DNA of 64,000 nucleotides, taken from contig NZ_LGIS01000007.1 in the NCBI RefSeq assembly GCF_001187905.1, forward strand, positions 1 through 64,000, written 5' to 3'. Origin of the DNA: Pantoea sp. RIT-PI-b. Lineage in GTDB: Bacteria; Pseudomonadota; Gammaproteobacteria; Enterobacterales; Enterobacteriaceae. The notes below the pieces were generated by a model that had not been told where the DNA came from, searched no databases, and saw only the letters and a list, made by a program, of their open reading frames with translations. How positions within the stretch are numbered: position 1 is the first letter of the stretch; every line of letters begins with the position of its first letter. The position numbers and the translations under genes were made by a program. Below are positions 53,926 through 63,542 of the stretch, piece after piece.

Positions 53926-54942
53926 TTAAGTGATTGAATTTAGTGGGTTAAGCGACATCGCTTCAGATAAATGGTCTGGTGCGAAATGTGCATACCTCAT
54001 TGTTACCTTAATATCTGTATGCCCAAGTATCCGCTGAAGCACAAGAATATTGCCGCCGTTCATCATGAAATGAGACGCAAACGTATGGCGCAAAACGTGT
54101 GTTAGCTGCCCAGCAGGAGTTTCGATACCGGCGCGTTGCATAGCCTTTCTAAAGGCTGAATAGCATGGTTTAAAGAGCACCTGCGCTTTCCTGCTGGATG
54201 GCAGATCAGCCTGTAATTTTTCAGTTATCGGCACCGCTCGGTTTTTCTTGCCTTTAGTTTTCACGTAGATGATTTGACCGGTGCGGATTTGGTTTCCCTT
54301 TAAGCCTTCGGCCTCACTCCATCGTGCGCCAGTTGCCAGGCAGATTTTCACAATGGTCGTCAGGTCTTTGGAGCGGCTGTTCTCACATTCGGCTAGGAGG
54401 GTTTTAATTTCCTCAATGGTGAGATAAGCCATCTCGGATTCACTGATTTTAAACTCGCGCACGTTCTCAAGCGGATTAGGCGCGGTCCATTCATCCAACC
54501 GGCGCAGCTCGTTAAACATCGCCCTGAAATAAGCCAGCTCTAGATTTACCGTGCGCGGCGTGACCGTTTTAACTCGAGTGGAGCGTGTGATCTTTCCGCT
54601 TAACCGCTGCTCGCGATAAGACGCAAAAATTTTCGCGTTGAACTCGGTTGCGAATGGGTTTCCCATAGCTTCGCAAGCGAACGCCATTGTGGTTCGCCGC
54701 TTCTCACCATCCGCCAACGTAATGCCATGCGTGTTGAACCACAATTCAACCAGCTCAATTACCCGCCGCTTATCTGCTTTCTCTCCCAGCCAAGGCTTAT
54801 CTTGAACCTGCTCTTTTACGAACTTCTCATAAGATTGTGCTTCGCCCTTTGTCGCAAATTGTCGGCGAATCCTTTTGCCATCACGGCCGTTTGGGAAAAC
54901 CTGTGCCTGCCATTTCCCGTTGGGTAATTTGTTTATTGCCAT
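53926..54942 (-). CDS. int: P2-family tyrosine recombinase (integrase)
   Basis: This 338-residue site-specific recombinase integrates and excises the prophage. Catalytic residues are visible: Arg207 in GARWSEAEG, His282-x-x-Arg285 in THVLRHTF, His308 in ILGHTD and the nucleophile Tyr317 in MRYAHF. The N-terminal arm-binding part (INKLPNGKWQAQVFPNGRDGK) is typical of P2/186 integrases. It lies next to the repressor gene, with the att core 1.6 kb downstream because of the inserted cargo gene. Confidence 0.95.
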   Translation of the reverse strand: MAINKLPNGKWQAQVFPNGRDGKRIRRQFATKGEAQSYEKFVKEQVQDKPWLGEKADKRRVIELVELWFNTHGITLADGEKRRTTMAFACEAMGNPFATEFNAKIFASYREQRLSGKITRSTRVKTVTPRTVNLELAYFRAMFNELRRLDEWTAPNPLENVREFKISESEMAYLTIEEIKTLLAECENSRSKDLTTIVKICLATGARWSEAEGLKGNQIRTGQIIYVKTKGKKNRAVPITEKLQADLPSSRKAQVLFKPCYSAFRKAMQRAGIETPAGQLTHVLRHTFASHFMMNGGNILVLQRILGHTDIKVTMRYAHFAPDHLSEAMSLNPLNSIT

Positions 54943-54951
54943 GCTTTGCCT

Positions 54952-55557
54952 TTAGAGGTACTCAGTGCGGGCAACGACTTTGCCCAAAACCTTGATGTCG
55001 TCTGCCTTGCATTCAAATGAGGCTTTTCCATTCTCAACGCGGATGCGCCCGCCGGGAAAACGGTACAGCTCTTTAACGCTAATGAGCTTATCAATCTCAA
55101 TGAGCCACAGCCCATCGGTGATCTCTGCGGCGGTCATATCAACCAGGTAATTCTGTTTCTCGAAATGTATTAATAGAGGGGCTTTAATATCACTTGGTAA
55201 GAGCTGAGCGTCATATTCAACCCAATCAGATGATAAAAAGTTCCCATTTGTGATTTTTCTAAGTTCGATTTTGGATGATGGCTGATCTTGGTTTGTGATG
55301 TTCGAATCACCGCGTCCATATGTCAGCCACTCAAGAGAAGTGCCGGTTTCCATCGAGCAAATCAGAACCCAATCAGCAGGAAAGTTCCCACGCATTATGC
55401 GGTTAGCCATAGTGCTTTGAGACACATCTAAGTGCCGACACAGCGCCTGTCGAGATGCAAAACCGTATGCCTGAACGATGCGCTCAATGGGATCTTTACC
55501 ACCCTCTGGTAAAGTTGGAGCTTTACGACTCGTAAAATCTTTCGTTGACCTTTCCAA
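54952..55557 (-). CDS. 186-type CI lysogeny repressor
   Basis: This 201-residue repressor has an N-terminal helix-turn-helix (about 22-72, ASRQALCRHLDVSQSTMANR) and a C-terminal dimerisation domain (about 95-200) of the phage 186 CI type rather than the short P2 C repressor. No Ala-Gly cleavage site with Ser-Lys dyad is evident, so prophage induction probably needs an antirepressor or Cox/Apl competition. It is divergent from the excision regulator at 55647. Confidence 0.88.
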   Translation of the reverse strand: MERSTKDFTSRKAPTLPEGGKDPIERIVQAYGFASRQALCRHLDVSQSTMANRIMRGNFPADWVLICSMETGTSLEWLTYGRGDSNITNQDQPSSKIELRKITNGNFLSSDWVEYDAQLLPSDIKAPLLIHFEKQNYLVDMTAAEITDGLWLIEIDKLISVKELYRFPGGRIRVENGKASFECKADDIKVLGKVVARTEYL

Positions 55558-57445: not shown

Positions 57446-57759
57446 GAGTCCAGATTGATGACCTTTATGCAGTGCGCGCGTTGAAATCCAGTGAGCCGGG
57501 CAAGCCGCAACAGTTGGTGTTAGAGAAATTCAGCTGGCTTGAGATTGATGGCGTCCGTCAGCGCGTGCCGCAAACCATGGCCGTGTATGAGTCGAAAGTG
57601 CTCTTGATGCGCGATCTGGCTGCTGATGTAATTGGTCGCCGTGTTTTGCGTGGCCAGATGAATACAACTGCGGGCTTTGTGGCGGAAACCCGCCGCATCG
57701 CCGAGTTGGTAGAGGCTGCATTGCAAGAGCTGGCTGAACTTCAGGCCGCGCATGTCTGA
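57442..57759 (+). CDS. Hypothetical phage protein upstream of gpA, probable TTG start
   Basis: The frame is open from ATG 57382, but that start overlaps the zinc-finger gene by 64 bp and lacks a ribosome-binding site. TTG at 57442 overlaps the preceding stop (TTGA) and has AAAGGGG nine bases upstream, giving 105 residues (LRVQIDDLYAVRALKSSEPG...). No family recognised. The 3' end overlaps the gpA start by 8 bp, which supports a real coupled gene. Confidence 0.6.
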   Translation: MRVQIDDLYAVRALKSSEPGKPQQLVLEKFSWLEIDGVRQRVPQTMAVYESKVLLMRDLAADVIGRRVLRGQMNTTAGFVAETRRIAELVEAALQELAELQAAHV

Positions 57760-59761
57760 AAGCCTTCCTGATCTCCTTACTGGTGAATATCACGCCGTAA
57801 ATCAGCAGCGGCGTGAAGTCTTTGGCATGTCCGCTCCGGCGGATATGTCCCTTTCTGAGCGCCGTCTCTGGAATGTGAATCCAGAGGACCACAACTGGCG
57901 CAGCCAATACCTGCAAAATATGCCGGATTATCTGGCCGGTTACTTTGCCGATCGCTACAGCAAAATCCTCTCAGCAAATAATGGCCGCCGTCGGGCCAAT
58001 GCGTTTTTGCGCCAGACTATCGGTCAGAACGTATTGCCACGCCTGCAGCTGGTTCGCAGTCGCTATCGTCTTGATGAAGCCGCTCAACATGAACTGCCGT
58101 TCATCAAGCAGCTTGATCGGCTGCCCACGCTTGACCGGCAGGACGTGCGCGATCTGGCTTATAAAGTCGCATCCTATCTTTCGCTTAGCCTGGCTGAGTT
58201 TGTCGATAAAACCTCTATGCCGCAGGAAGCAGACGAGCAGACCGTAACCTGCATTGCGTATCGCTACGTTGCTGAACTGGCCGCATTGACAGGCACGCAG
58301 CCGCCATATTGGGCTGAGTTCAAAGCCTGCAAAGGTGAGCTTACTCTGCGCAAGGCACAATCGGGTCTATTGCGCATGATAGCGCCAGAGTGGTGGCGCG
58401 GCCGTCTTAAGCAGATGCGCGATCTCCAGCGCGAGCACATGGCAATCGCTGTTGGGCAGGTGCAAAAATCTGCTTCACCTTACGTTTCACGCGGCACGCT
58501 GGCGGAATGGGTCGAGCAGAAGAAACGCAACCGCGATTTCTTCAAACGCTACGACCTGATGAACAAAGAAACCGGTGACCGTATCGCAATGGATGAAATG
58601 GTCAACCGCAGCACCGCGAACCCGGCCATGCGCCGCCGTGAGCTGATGACCAGAATGCGCGGCTTTGAAGACATCGCCAATGAAACCGGCTGCGTAGGGG
58701 ATTTTTATACGATCACCGCGCCGTCGCGTTATCACTCCGTTTACAGCCAGGGCGGTTTCATTACCAAATGGAACGGCTCAAGCCCGCGCGATACGCAGCG
58801 CTATCTCTGCCGCGTTTGGGCGCGCATCCGCGCCGCGTTGTCCCGCGGAGAAATCCATGTTTACGGCTTCCGTGTTGTGGAGCCTCATCACGACGGCACG
58901 CCACACTGGCACTTGCTGCTGTTTATGCTGCCGGAACATCGCGAGCGTGTGCAGCAGGTCATGCGTGAGCACGCCTGCAAAGAAGACGCCGACGAGCTGA
59001 ACACGCCGCAGGCGCGCAAAGCGCGTTTTCACGTTGAGCCTATCGATCCCACCAAAGGCAGCGCCACGGGTTACATCGCTAAATACATCTCCAAAAATAT
59101 CGACGGCTTCGCAATGGACGGCGAGAAGGACGATGAAACCGGTTCGAACATGCGTGATATGGCGAAAGCCGTTTGCGCGTGGGCGTCTCGCTGGTGCATC
59201 CGCCAGTTTCAGCAGATTGGCGGCGCGCCGGTCACTGTTTGGCGCGAGTTGCGCCGTCTCGGCGATACGCGCTTATCAAACGAGAAGATGGACGCCGTGC
59301 TGGCGTCTGCTTCCGTTGCCAGCTGCTGGGCGTCTTACACTATGGCGCAGGGTGGCCCGCTGGTCGCGCGTGATGACTTGGTGATCCGCCTTTGTTACGA
59401 GATCACCGAAATGGGCAACGAATACGCGGAGGACGTGCAGCGCGTTCAGGGCATCTACTCACCTCACTATCAGGATTCTGAAGTATTCACGCGTCTGGTG
59501 AAGTGGGAAGCCGTTGCCAAATTAGCCGACGCATCAGCGGAGGCTGGCCCTTCTGGCGGCATCGCCGCCCCTTGGAGTTCTGTCAATAACTGTACGGGGC
59601 CGGAGCGCCGGCGGTTAGAGCTGGAACTAAAAGCCCGTGGTTTTGAGGGGCATGAGGAGGAAATTAGCCTCCTTTCCCGAGGATGCAGCATAAATTCAGG
59701 CGCGCGAATGCGGCTGTTTTACCGAAACGGCAGACTTCAGGAACAAAAGATAACCATCTGA
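57752..59761 (+). CDS. A: Phage replication initiation endonuclease gpA (rolling circle)
   Basis: This 669-residue P2 gpA homologue nicks the phage origin and starts rolling-circle replication. The HUH motif is at residues 385-387 (TPHWHLLLF), and the two catalytic tyrosines are Tyr441 and Tyr445 in GYIAKYISKN. N-terminal half with WNVNPEDHNWR and C-terminal part with ASVASCWASYTMAQGGP are family-typical. It is the last large gene of the early operon. In P2 the origin lies within gene A, so the origin is likely inside this gene. Confidence 0.95.
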   Translation: MSESLPDLLTGEYHAVNQQRREVFGMSAPADMSLSERRLWNVNPEDHNWRSQYLQNMPDYLAGYFADRYSKILSANNGRRRANAFLRQTIGQNVLPRLQLVRSRYRLDEAAQHELPFIKQLDRLPTLDRQDVRDLAYKVASYLSLSLAEFVDKTSMPQEADEQTVTCIAYRYVAELAALTGTQPPYWAEFKACKGELTLRKAQSGLLRMIAPEWWRGRLKQMRDLQREHMAIAVGQVQKSASPYVSRGTLAEWVEQKKRNRDFFKRYDLMNKETGDRIAMDEMVNRSTANPAMRRRELMTRMRGFEDIANETGCVGDFYTITAPSRYHSVYSQGGFITKWNGSSPRDTQRYLCRVWARIRAALSRGEIHVYGFRVVEPHHDGTPHWHLLLFMLPEHRERVQQVMREHACKEDADELNTPQARKARFHVEPIDPTKGSATGYIAKYISKNIDGFAMDGEKDDETGSNMRDMAKAVCAWASRWCIRQFQQIGGAPVTVWRELRRLGDTRLSNEKMDAVLASASVASCWASYTMAQGGPLVARDDLVIRLCYEITEMGNEYAEDVQRVQGIYSPHYQDSEVFTRLVKWEAVAKLADASAEAGPSGGIAAPWSSVNNCTGPERRRLELELKARGFEGHEEEISLLSRGCSINSGARMRLFYRNGRLQEQKITI

Positions 59762-59822
59762 TTAGTCCAGAGGATTTCTCACGGAAGGTAAAAAAACATT
59801 TCACATTTCGAAACTCATAATA

Positions 59823-59842
59823 TACTGTACGTATAACCAGTT
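59823..59842 (+). promoter_or_regulatory. LexA-type operator overlapping a promoter
   Basis: TACTGTACGTATAACCAGTT contains CTGT-N8-CCAG, one base off the LexA consensus CTGT-N8-ACAG. It overlaps a TATACT -10 (59821-59826). The gene starting at 59863 should be SOS-inducible. In phage 186 the antirepressor gene tum, located after A, is controlled in this way. Confidence 0.6.
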
Positions 59843-59862
59843 GTTCATTGTGCGGAGGGAAT

Positions 59863-60051
59863 ATGCAGGATTATTTTTTGGAGTCGATGAAGCTCCAGCG
59901 TATTGATTTATTTATGAAACTTGTTGCTGCTAGTGATTGCACGGATGACGAGAAGCAGCTTGCCATTCAGTGGGTCTCTGAACTGACCGATGAGCTGATG
60001 CGGAAAGTCAGAAGCCACGAATATTCGCGCATGATGCACGCTTCAGATTAG
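59863..60051 (+). CDS. Small SOS-controlled phage protein
   Basis: This 62-residue acidic helical protein (MQDYFLESMKLQRIDLFMKL at the start) has a strong GGAGGG ribosome-binding site and a LexA-like operator directly upstream. It occupies the place where 186 has the LexA-controlled tum region, but it is shorter than Tum and I do not recognise homology. It could be an antirepressor-like induction protein, which is inference. Confidence 0.65.
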   Translation: MQDYFLESMKLQRIDLFMKLVAASDCTDDEKQLAIQWVSELTDELMRKVRSHEYSRMMHASD

Positions 60052-60060
60052 TTTTTTCAG

Positions 60061-60171
60061 ATGTCACGCGTAGCAATATGTGATCGGATGGAAGCTACAT
60101 ATCACGCCGGGATGCTTACGGAAGGTGAGTCCGAACATAACGAGAGTTGCGAGGCGTTAAGCCATGGCTAA
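60061..60171 (+). CDS. Possible 36-codon phage ORF
   Basis: The reading frame MSRVAICDRMEATYHAGMLT... to TAA overlaps the next start by 8 bp (ATGGCTAA), a layout often seen in coupled phage genes. No clear ribosome-binding site precedes the ATG. No homology recognised. Confidence 0.3.
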   Translation: MSRVAICDRMEATYHAGMLTEGESEHNESCEALSHG

Positions 60172-60421
60172 AAATCCCGAAAAATTCCAGATCGTTTACC
60201 GAGGTGAGGTACTCACTTACTACAAGCCAGGTGAATGGGTGTTTTTCCAACGGCCGAAAGAATGCGGCGGGGGTTACTGGCTCGGTAAAACCTACGACTT
60301 CGTTTTCATGCTTGAGATTCCACATCCCATTTCTTTACGGCAGGGCATGGATTTTCTGAACGAAGCAGAAGGAATTGGCACCCACAAACTCGATTCTGTG
60401 GACGACTTCAAACTGGAGTGA
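60164..60421 (+). CDS. Hypothetical phage protein
   Basis: This 85-residue protein (MAKNPEKFQIVYRGEVLTYY...) is rich in aromatic residues. No recognised domain, signal peptide or membrane helix. GCGAGGCG precedes the ATG. It lies between the SOS-controlled gene and the cos-like region and is followed by a strong terminator. Confidence 0.6.
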   Translation: MAKNPEKFQIVYRGEVLTYYKPGEWVFFQRPKECGGGYWLGKTYDFVFMLEIPHPISLRQGMDFLNEAEGIGTHKLDSVDDFKLE

Positions 60422-60463: not shown

Positions 60464-60507
60464 GGATCGCTTTACCCTCGGCCCGCCAGTTCTGGCGGGC
60501 TTTCGTT
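60464..60507 (+). terminator. Terminator at the end of the phage early region
   Basis: GATCC/GGATC (60464-60478) and then a strong GCCCGCCA-GTTC-TGGCGGGC hairpin (60481-60500) are followed by TTTCGTTT. It closes transcription coming from the early operon just before cos. Confidence 0.85.
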
Positions 60508-60549: not shown

Positions 60550-60568
60550 GGCGTGGCGGGGGTACGAG
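60550..60568. other. P2-type cos-like site
   Basis: GGCGTGGCGGGGGTACGAG matches the 19-nt P2/186 cohesive end (GGCGaGGCGGGGaaagcac in P2, as I recall it) at 11 of its first 12 bases. It is followed by GCGCGCGC and preceded by GCATGAAAACCGCATCATAAAGCGGGC-like flanking sequence. Its position after gpA and before the portal gene is where cos lies in a P2-type prophage. Not recognised by alignment, only by eye. Confidence 0.65.
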
Positions 60569-60586: not shown

Positions 60587-61306
60587 ATGTTTAATCGTAG
60601 CGATGTGATGAGAGTATTCAAAGCTGCACAAAGGTGGTTGACAAAGACTGAGATATGCACCAACATCCAAGTTGACAAAACATCATTTATGCACTCTTGG
60701 AGAGAGTTCTTTATGCCTAATCATTGTTCCCCATGGGAGTTTTACCCACAGCTTAGTGAAAGTCGTTTGAGTGTCATTGCTGAAGAACTACTTAAAGTCC
60801 TCGATGCTACTTATGAGCAGCTTTCAACGCCATTGGATGATAATTACACTCGTGGAACCTGCACTTTTGGCAGGCAACGCAACAAGATTTTGGAAATCGG
60901 TTTAAGTGATGAACATGAATGGATGGAAATTACTAACTCTGGAATGGATATAACATTCAATATTGGGAATATTCCAGTTCGTTTCTTCGCTGATGACCCG
61001 GAGAATCCTAAAAAACCTGGGTTCTACCGCCGTAACGAAGTTGATCAGTTGTTCGAGCCAGAAATCGCCGTCCCCACGATGCATCGTTTTGTCGTCGAGA
61101 AGCCAGAGTTTGAAGGGGAAGGCGCGAGAGTTCATTTCATTGGCTACAACGTCATGGAAGAAATTGTGTCAAAATGGACTTACGGTGAAGGGCGTATTAC
61201 TACGCTTCATTCAACTGATGATACTCCTCCAACTCCTGTTACGATTGAACTGGATCCAATCAGTGCTTCGTTGCCTGAGAAGGACAAAAAAAGTAATTCT
61301 AAATAG
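60587..61306 (+). CDS. Unknown prophage cargo protein (first gene of the ImmA-PIN block)
   Basis: This is a protein of up to 239 residues, AT-richer than the phage core. I recognise no domain; it is soluble, mixed alpha/beta by appearance, with a charged C-terminus (LPEKDKKSNSK). No clear ribosome-binding site precedes the ATG at 60587, so a Met at 60608 or another codon could be the start. It begins only 18 bp from the cos-like site. The ImmA-like gene follows 10 bp later, suggesting co-transcription and a functional link. Confidence 0.65.
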   Translation: MFNRSDVMRVFKAAQRWLTKTEICTNIQVDKTSFMHSWREFFMPNHCSPWEFYPQLSESRLSVIAEELLKVLDATYEQLSTPLDDNYTRGTCTFGRQRNKILEIGLSDEHEWMEITNSGMDITFNIGNIPVRFFADDPENPKKPGFYRRNEVDQLFEPEIAVPTMHRFVVEKPEFEGEGARVHFIGYNVMEEIVSKWTYGEGRITTLHSTDDTPPTPVTIELDPISASLPEKDKKSNSK

Positions 61307-61316
61307 TAGGTGAAAA

Positions 61317-62420
61317 GTGTTTAACGGTTCTAATTTACGCCTGGCTCGTCTGTATCACGAGCTATCACTTGAGCAAGTAGCTGAACGGGTCGAAAAGACC
61401 CGTCAATATATTCAGCGTCTGGAGTCTGGTGCAGCTGCACCTACTCCTGAGCTTGCTCATAAATTAGCTTCCGCTTTGCAGGTTAGTCCTGATTTTTTCA
61501 TCGATGAACAACCTGTAGTTATTAATGAAGAAATTGTGCACTTTCGCAAACGCAGCTCTACTCGGTTAGCGACTAAACTGAGCACTATTGCTAAGGCTGA
61601 ACTTTTTAAAAGACTTATTGATGTATTTGAAAATGAGCTAAATTTACCACCAGTAAAATTTCCTCAATTAAAAGTTTCGACACAAGAGGAAATTGAGAAG
61701 GCTGCTGAGCAGTGCCGAGTCGAATGGGGACTTGGTTTTGGTCCAATAGAAAATATGACTCGGCTGGCTGAAAAGCTCGGTGCTTTCGTAACCTCATTTG
61801 ATTCAGTTTCTGATGAGGTTGACGCTCTATCTGTACCGTTAAGTCGGCCTTTTATTGTTAGAAACACTGCGAAAAAGTCTCCTTGTCGGCAGCGATTCGA
61901 TATCGCTCATGAAGTTGCCCATCTAATACTTCATGAGGGTGTGTTAACAGGGGACCGTATTACTGAATCTCAAGCTAATCGTTTTGCTTCTGCTCTTTTA
62001 TTACCAAGATCTGCTATGGCTAAATATTTTCCAAAGCCGGTGGGCGGTAGAATTGATTGGCAAGGTTTGAGTCAGTTTAAATTAACATGGAAAGTGAGCA
62101 AGGCTGCCATTATATATAGAGCGCATCAATTGTCATTACTTAGTGACGCACAATACAAGACTGCATTTTTTGGATTGAAACGTAAAGGTGAGGCTATTGA
62201 TGAGAAGGAAGATTGTCTAATTATGCATGAAAGACCTGAGTTATTTAACAAGGCGCTAGCTTTTATTGTTAATGAATTGGGTTATGATGTTGATAAGATT
62301 TCTAATAAATTGAATGTTGAGCCTGGCTTAATATTGAATTTAGTTAATGATGAAGAACTCTTGAAAAAGAGAGCGTTAGTTGAGAATAACGTCATATCTT
62401 TATCCTCCTATCGCTCATAA
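61317..62420 (+). CDS. Xre-ImmA/IrrE-type HTH metalloprotease
   Basis: This 367-residue protein has an N-terminal Xre helix-turn-helix (about 6-60, LARLYHELSLEQVAERVEKT) and an ImmA/IrrE (COG2856/DUF955) zinc peptidase domain with HEVAHLILHE (HExxH at 198-202) and SQANRFASALLLP. Such proteins cleave repressors (ImmA, DdrO-IrrE) or act as antitoxin-like regulators next to PIN-type toxins. The start is GTG at 61317 with TAGGTGA upstream. A strong terminator separates it from the PIN gene downstream. Confidence 0.88.
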   Translation: MFNGSNLRLARLYHELSLEQVAERVEKTRQYIQRLESGAAAPTPELAHKLASALQVSPDFFIDEQPVVINEEIVHFRKRSSTRLATKLSTIAKAELFKRLIDVFENELNLPPVKFPQLKVSTQEEIEKAAEQCRVEWGLGFGPIENMTRLAEKLGAFVTSFDSVSDEVDALSVPLSRPFIVRNTAKKSPCRQRFDIAHEVAHLILHEGVLTGDRITESQANRFASALLLPRSAMAKYFPKPVGGRIDWQGLSQFKLTWKVSKAAIIYRAHQLSLLSDAQYKTAFFGLKRKGEAIDEKEDCLIMHERPELFNKALAFIVNELGYDVDKISNKLNVEPGLILNLVNDEELLKKRALVENNVISLSSYRS

Positions 62421-62477: not shown

Positions 62478-63542
62478 ATGCTGCAAACCAGAAATGTTTT
62501 TATTGATACGCAGTGTTATGTAAAGGCAGGATTACATTTTGAAGGCGTAGCTTTTGAAGCTTTTAAAGAGCTTTGCGAAAAAGGGGAGTTGGCTTTAGTT
62601 ATAACTTCCATCGTTGAGAGAGAAGTGAAAAACAAAATTGATGATTCAATTAAAGAAGCTCTGCAAGCAGTTAATGTTGTTCAGCGAAAGGCTAGAATAC
62701 TAAAAAGTATTGATGGGAACCCTATTGAAGGTTTTTTTCAACCAATTGACGCTACTAGTGTTCATGAGTCGGCTAAAAAAGCTTTTAGTGATTTCCTTGA
62801 TGATAGTAATGCAAAGATAGCACAATTAGAAGGCATAAATATCGATGGTATTTTTAATGATTACTTCGATGGAAATGCCCCATTTGGTGATGGGAAGAAA
62901 AAAAATGAGTTTCCTGATGCTTTTTCTCTAGCCGCAGTAAGGAATTATGTACAGGGTGACGGTGTTTACGTAATATCTGAAGATGATGATCTAAAAAGAT
63001 TTTGTGCATCAAATCCAAATTGCCATCAGGTTGATACCCTTGACAAGCTTCTAGATATTTATAATGCACATGAAAACTCACTATCTAAAGCTATAACTAG
63101 TTATATATTGGATAATAAAGAATCATTGAATCAAGAGATTGAAGAGATATTCAACCGGTCAGAGGCATACAATGCATCGACATGGGATGATTCAGAGTTA
63201 GAGTCTTTTTCAGTCCTAAGTATCAGTGATCTCGATCCTTCAGTAATATCAATTGATGGCAATAGCTGTATAGTCACTATAGATGTGGCTGTTCAATTTG
63301 AAGTGACTGTCACTGGCCCTGACTTTACTAATGGTTACTATGACAGTGAAGATAAAGTTGTAATCCCAATGGATTCAACCAAAAATGTTGATATTGAAGA
63401 AAAAGAGTTTCTCATCGAAATAGAAATGGATTTTGATATCAATGGTGATGAGATAACCAATGTTCAGCATAGAATAAATATTGATAAGCTGTTTAGGGGT
63501 ATCGAGTTTTCGGTAGAAGAAAATAGTTACGATTATTATTAA
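62478..63542 (+). CDS. PIN-like nuclease with extended C-terminal domain
   Basis: This 354-residue protein has a PIN-like domain (about 1-200) with the expected acidic set: Asp10 in VFIDTQ, Glu47/Glu49 in VEREVK, Asp147 in NEFPDAFS and the Asp cluster 169-171 in VISEDDDLKRF. A further ~150 residues, Asp/Glu-rich and probably beta-stranded, follow (ISIDGNSCIVTIDVAVQFEV). PIN domains are metal-dependent RNases and frequent toxins. AAGGATATAT precedes the start. It belongs with the upstream ImmA-like gene as a probable toxin or defence effector; this pairing is inference. Confidence 0.8.
   Translation: MLQTRNVFIDTQCYVKAGLHFEGVAFEAFKELCEKGELALVITSIVEREVKNKIDDSIKEALQAVNVVQRKARILKSIDGNPIEGFFQPIDATSVHESAKKAFSDFLDDSNAKIAQLEGINIDGIFNDYFDGNAPFGDGKKKNEFPDAFSLAAVRNYVQGDGVYVISEDDDLKRFCASNPNCHQVDTLDKLLDIYNAHENSLSKAITSYILDNKESLNQEIEEIFNRSEAYNASTWDDSELESFSVLSISDLDPSVISIDGNSCIVTIDVAVQFEVTVTGPDFTNGYYDSEDKVVIPMDSTKNVDIEEKEFLIEIEMDFDINGDEITNVQHRINIDKLFRGIEFSVEENSYDYY

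Follow-up and report, generated by a model that had tools for sequence, protein, structure and literature searches.

The early region of a P2/186-like prophage, which forms the right end of the 64-kb window (the whole stretch of DNA analysed), carries a LexA operator ahead of a gene, here called tumA, for a 62-aa protein whose sequence profile relates it to the N-terminal half of the antirepressor Tum of phage 186. We consider it very probable that this locus constitutes an SOS induction module, in which DNA damage would lead in turn to LexA cleavage, TumA synthesis, CI inactivation and prophage induction. In the lysogen, the host LexA would occupy positions 59823-59842 and block the tumA promoter; upon DNA damage, RecA would trigger the cleavage of LexA and TumA would be made. 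TumA would then bind the 186-type CI repressor of the prophage, CI would lose its operators and the early lytic promoter would open, so that the prophage is induced. DinI, which usually accompanies TumA, is missing here, so that TumA would work by itself, its gene probably being co-transcribed with one of PHROG 2100.

In this region, the integrase gene (53926-54942, minus strand) is followed by that of the 186-type CI repressor (54952-55557, minus strand; start codon uncertain), the presumed target of TumA. Next come genes for a Cox/Apl-type regulator, CII, a DUF5347 protein and replication protein A (57752-59761, plus strand), the last of which resembles at the DNA level the replication protein genes of ESSI-2-type phages, and then tumA, the accessory genes and the start of the portal gene (minus strand). 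The position of tumA, directly after A and between this gene and the portal (Q) end of the phage, is that of tum in 186. Its ORF (plus strand, 62 codons) runs from an ATG at 59863 to 60051, with a GGAGG ribosome site at 59854-59858 ahead of it. The PHROG 2100 gene (60164-60421, plus strand; 85 aa; phrog_2100, E 4.6e-34) lies downstream, and a hairpin resembling an intrinsic terminator (60480-60501, plus strand; a 9-pair stem, then a T-rich tail) is a possible end of the SOS transcript, two such hairpins having been found in the region against 1.1 expected by chance.

Further downstream, the stretch GGCGTGGCGGGG at 60550-60561, also present after tumA in phage ENT90 (locus L007, from 5476), is presumably a P2-type cos site. 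Two adjoining genes at 60587-62420, which occupy the accessory-gene site ahead of the portal gene, match PADLOC RmrT (E 1.2e-91) and RmrA (E 7.2e-196); we take them to be a RosmerTA-like toxin-antitoxin/defence pair. If 60550-60561 is indeed cos, these genes would sit between cos and Q. The names RmrT, RmrA and RosmerTA occur together in PMC10440598. Directly after this pair, a 354-aa protein with a PIN_12 domain (62478-63542; E 1.3e-24) is encoded, for which PADLOC gave no match at E 0.01.

The window was scored with a matrix of 22 E. coli LexA sites whose own scores range from 12.6 to 27.7 bits. The operator TACTGTACGTATAACCAGTT (59823-59842, plus strand), 20 nt ahead of the tumA ORF, is the top match of the 64-kb window at 21.5 bits, the runner-up reaching 9.0 bits. 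Among 30 sequences of 64 kb simulated with a first-order Markov model, the maximum averaged 12.0 bits and never exceeded 15.3, such that none of the 30 reached 21.5 bits; the operator reported by the initial annotation is thereby confirmed. The core pattern CTGT-N8-ACAG, with one mismatch allowed, occurs 18 times in the window against 19.4 expected, that is, at chance level, so the significance belongs to the full 20-mer and not to the core alone. The best LexA sites at host loci are of the same type as the prophage box: TACTGTATGACCATACAGTA at recA (23.8 bits), and those at lexA (17.0 bits) and at two DinI-family genes (24.4 and 19.9 bits).

A putative promoter, read by eye, consists of TTCACA (59800-59805) and TATACT (59821-59826) separated by 15 nt (59800-59826, plus strand). 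Its -10 element overlaps the LexA operator, in agreement with the overlap that had been proposed earlier. A promoter scan limited to spacings of 16-18 nt returned no plus-strand site and a sole match on the minus strand, where 1.4 would be expected by chance; the 15-nt spacing explains why the putative tumA promoter was missed. A similar TTnACA ... TATA layout precedes the box in many of the relatives inspected. Felsduovirus/Klebsiella-type relatives (L001, L002, L003, L004 and others) have a box-to-start distance of about 40-50 nt and an extra ACAG half-site after the main box, features that are not seen in the window.

The operator is conserved ahead of tumA in relatives. Their sources were named phages, the GTDB collection (19 loci), other genomes and IMG/VR, the last represented by the 80 best loci from each of three scans (with at least 524, with 259 and with 142 confirmed), and they yielded 282 TumA domains, 245 of them unique by upstream and protein sequence. 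A LexA box scoring 16 bits or more, a threshold reached by 21 of the 22 E. coli sites, lies upstream of 239 of the 242 unique relatives whose upstream sequence extends over 100 nt or more, and is absent ahead of tumA in the remaining three (L040, L079 and L192). Only 3 of 2420 random 210-nt stretches taken elsewhere in the same loci reach this score. The set contains 143 different proteins and 78 different boxes, although related phages are not independent of one another. Furthermore, TumA co-occurs with a 186-type CI, which was detected in 152 of the 156 loci whose upstream flank measures 6.5 kb or more (the four exceptions being L028, L037, L038 and L040). A single-sequence profile of the P2 C repressor found nothing at E < 1e-4 over the loci of the relatives, and none of the phages with a P2-type C repressor (60 of 122 listed) appears among the TumA (40 of 65) or Tum (60 of 130) records listed.

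The 62-aa protein had been described as unrecognised, which it is not: it belongs to PHROG 698 (E 5.8e-32), a family entered in PHROGs as of unknown function, with a weaker match to PHROG 8554 (6.1e-7). Neither Pfam nor NCBIfam nor PADLOC yielded a match above cut-off. An identical protein, over all 62 residues, is present in Pantoea sp. SOD02, which makes a Pantoea the probable host, and tblastn (E up to 1) matched 65 phage records, among them SopEPhi, SEN8 and many Klebsiella phages, with a best identity of 81% among the matches listed (40 of 65). Close homologues occur in Fels-2 and in a prophage of E. coli HS. The AlphaFold2 model is a two-helix hairpin (mean pLDDT 87) for which no fold match was found in PDB or BFVD at E <= 0.001, a comparison that is uninformative because such a hairpin is too simple; a four-sequence TumA profile likewise found no match among the sequences of solved structures.

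By profile comparison, the 62-aa protein and the N-terminal half of 186 Tum (residues ~1-60) are homologous. Direct BLASTP between the two proteins gave no alignment. The N-terminus of 186 Tum itself matches phrog_698 (4.7e-6) as well as 8554 and 1993, the last of which is also matched by TumA of PSP3. Iterated searches started from the window side and from the 186 side (E < 1e-3) gathered 210 and 276 ORFs, respectively, with 207 in common, the window-side matches to 186-type proteins often being marginal (about 9e-4). Profiles were then built from disjoint sets of 29 186-type domains and 27 window-type proteins, with 2000 shuffled sequences per direction as control. The 186-type profile scored all 27 window-type proteins at 13.2-21.3 bits (best shuffle 10.0), and the window-type profile all 29 186-type domains at 8.8-22.6 bits (best shuffle 8.5); E <= 0.001 was reached by only 16 of the 27 and 4 of the 29, and the window's own protein obtained 15.9 bits (E 0.0014). 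Finally, hhalign aligned the 62-aa family with 186 Tum over 44 ungapped columns from residue 1 (E 6e-5), at a probability of only 64.8%. The larger size of 186 Tum is accounted for by a DinI domain fused onto it.

The repressor of this prophage contains the domains PF07022 (1.8e-25) and PF16452 (2.5e-24), and no S24 peptidase match was listed for it up to E = 1. It is thus 186-CI-like with no obvious self-cleavage site, as the initial annotation had noted, and in the absence of an S24 self-cleavage domain it should not itself respond to RecA. In PMC3121763, 186 Tum is described as LexA-controlled, binding its repressor and preventing operator binding, and tum is reported to be split by a stop codon in Fels-2 and PSP3; antirepressor activity is ascribed there to the upstream half in PSP3, as a personal communication reported second-hand. 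UV relief of pR is explained by inhibition of CI by Tum in PMC7708051. E. coli HS carries the P2-like prophage DuoHS, in which lytic replication after mitomycin C is abolished by deletion of tum, according to PMC12055606. The E. coli HS prophage at 917-948 kb encodes a PHROG 698 protein (ECHS_RS04495, 62 aa) identical to that of the window at 46 of 62 residues and preceded, as in the window, by a LexA-type box; this prophage appears to be DuoHS, and its 62-aa gene the one that the authors of PMC12055606 call tum. ECHS_RS04495 differs from tumA of the window in being followed by a DinI-like gene.

Comparison with named phages places the module among known systems. As in the window, PSP3 (TumA; AY135486) and Fels-2 (split tum; STM2728) carry after A a short gene for 60-62 aa that is preceded by a LexA box, and in both the N-terminal half of tum is a gene of its own. 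The PSP3 record gives the upstream gene of the pair the name tumA and the description 'similar to 5' end 186 tum; UV induction of prophage'. In these two phages a dinI-family gene (tumB in PSP3, to which the Fels-2 record likens its own) lies directly downstream, whereas it is missing in the window; PSP3 TumA, moreover, matches PHROG 1993 and the window protein PHROG 698. The order of A, a tumA homologue and directly thereafter a DinI-family or DinI-like gene is found in Fels-2, SEN8, SopEPhi and a Klebsiella phage. Phage 186 (NC_001317) shares with the window the position of the gene after A, the homologous N-terminal part and the 186-type CI, and its record places a putative LexA site over the -10 of promoter p95, just as the box of the window lies over the -10 read by eye; 186 Tum, however, has 146 aa with the DinI part at the C-terminus of the same protein, whereas the window has the N-terminal part alone. 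ENT90 (HQ110084) comes close to the window in its stand-alone TumA-like protein with a LexA-type box and no dinI annotated downstream, although this protein is nearer to the 186-type Tum (PHROG 1993/189) than to PHROG 698. GfoA/GftA of Gifsy and AntC of N15 belong to other phage groups and are likened to TumA by mode of action, being LexA-controlled antirepressors that act on a repressor, as described in PMC3121763.

These relationships bear on an alternative that we consider improbable, namely that a genuine LexA box controls a 62-aa protein with an accessory SOS role, such as modulating RecA or host physiology, instead of an antirepressor, and that the prophage is induced by other means. The frequent adjacency of tumA to dinI, an SOS modulator, would suit such a role, as would the pairing of near-identical TumA proteins with quite different CI proteins. 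It is opposed by the homology of the protein to that half of Tum which is not DinI, by the existence of TumA without a DinI neighbour in both the window and ENT90, by the antirepressor activity reported for the upstream half of PSP3 tum in PMC3121763, and by the strong association of TumA with 186-type CI. The antirepressor reading is therefore preferred. That a LexA-controlled induction protein occupies the tum position had been a guess, and this part is now well supported by homology and conservation; its presentation as a new minimal kind of protein does not hold, since the stand-alone gene already exists in PSP3 (tumA) and Fels-2, and the 62-aa form in E. coli HS.

What sets the window apart is the lack of DinI: its ORF ends at residue 62 with no C-terminal DinI part, and no dinI gene follows. 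PF06183 matches in the host genome are confined to two DinI-family genes on contigs C12 and C33, with none on the contig of the window (C32). Of the 92 unique window-type loci, 62 carry dinI as a separate gene and in the other 30 none was detected within 1.5 kb, while in the 153 loci of other types dinI is fused in 70, separate in 33, absent in 48 and cut off in 2. Altogether, DinI went undetected in 78 of 243 assessable unique loci; these counts of absence are upper bounds, since the search was confined to a distance of 1.5 kb, to ORFs of 35 aa or longer and to matches at E < 1e-3, and the flanks of some loci are short. In the literature covered on Tum/TumA and P2-like SOS prophages, mostly titles and the openings of abstracts, a TumA without DinI was not found.

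The DinI-less layout could also mean that the module is decaying, with DinI deleted and the remaining TumA a non-functional remnant, a reading that we regard as still less probable than an accessory role. Besides the missing DinI, it could draw on the stretch between tumA and the PHROG 2100 gene (60052-60163), which holds no conserved ORF; a 36-aa ORF overlapping it (60061-60171) was rejected as a gene, having no phage match up to E 10 and a frame that is not kept in L049 and L052. When the post-tumA stretch was compared by blastn with the dinI-bearing locus L053, the alignment took in the PHROG 2100 gene and 21 nt immediately ahead of it, and no convincing dinI remnant was seen. Against decay, the TumA ORF, its ribosome site and its operator are all intact, the same layout recurs in other contigs (L022, L041-L043 and L049-L052, with an identical or very similar box and 123-135 nt before PHROG 2100), and a second lineage, ENT90, also has tumA without DinI. 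An intact TumA module thus remains the favoured reading, and the PHROG 2100 gene is probably the second gene of its SOS transcript. This gene sits after tumA-dinI in several P2-like phages (Cartapus, ST13-OXA48phi12.1). We rejected it as a dedicated SOS gene: in the one P22-like phage examined (SI8) its neighbours are ea and excisionase genes, and so it does not look SOS-specific. Hardly credible, finally, is a chance match to LexA ahead of an ORF that is no gene, for which the chance-level frequency of the core would speak, but which is contradicted by the full-site score and the simulations and, decisively, by the conservation of both box and protein in relatives.

Under the antirepressor reading, TumA and CI might be expected to vary together, and this was assessed in the loci holding all five genes considered (175, reduced to 168 without identical pairs and to 126 without near-duplicates, of which 124 were used, two being left out for gaps) by a partial rank correlation that allows for CII, RepA and Q. 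Over all loci, the correlation of TumA with CI was 0.40 for the N-terminal, DNA-binding part and 0.22 for the C-terminal part, neither value being matched in any of 300 permutations. Within the window type (56 loci, two dropped) it fell to 0.17 and 0.05 (1/300 and 56/300 permutations as high), and within the other types (68 loci) to -0.04 and -0.12 (217/300 and 292/300). The portal gene, a nearer neighbour, tracks TumA more closely than CI does (0.57 versus 0.38, partial). Co-variation of TumA with the DNA-binding half of CI is, therefore, a weak hint that fails inside the non-window types. In the 1977 pairs with a TumA distance below 0.2, the median CI distance was 0.28 for the N-terminal and 0.47 for the C-terminal part; near-identical TumA proteins that accompany differing CI proteins leave room for cross-induction, and also for a CI-independent role. 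It is possible, if somewhat doubtful, that TumA suffices as an induction switch without DinI and that this switch is widely shared, the hairpin acting on the better-conserved DNA-binding half of CI, with cross-induction as a possible outcome. If this is true, PHROG 698, 8554 and 1993, listed as of unknown function, would be antirepressors, and near-identical TumA proteins could induce resident P2-like prophages with differing CI.

Taken as a whole, the module is an ordinary, well-conserved SOS antirepressor system, new as a member only and unusual solely in the absence of DinI, and it leaves the known picture of antirepressor-based induction unchanged. It points to a function for the small protein family PHROG 698 and, through it, for PHROG 8554 and 1993. 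Furthermore, the natural DinI-less examples allow one to ask what the DinI half of Tum does, and the findings suggest that one operator together with one short gene can mark SOS-inducible P2-like prophages.
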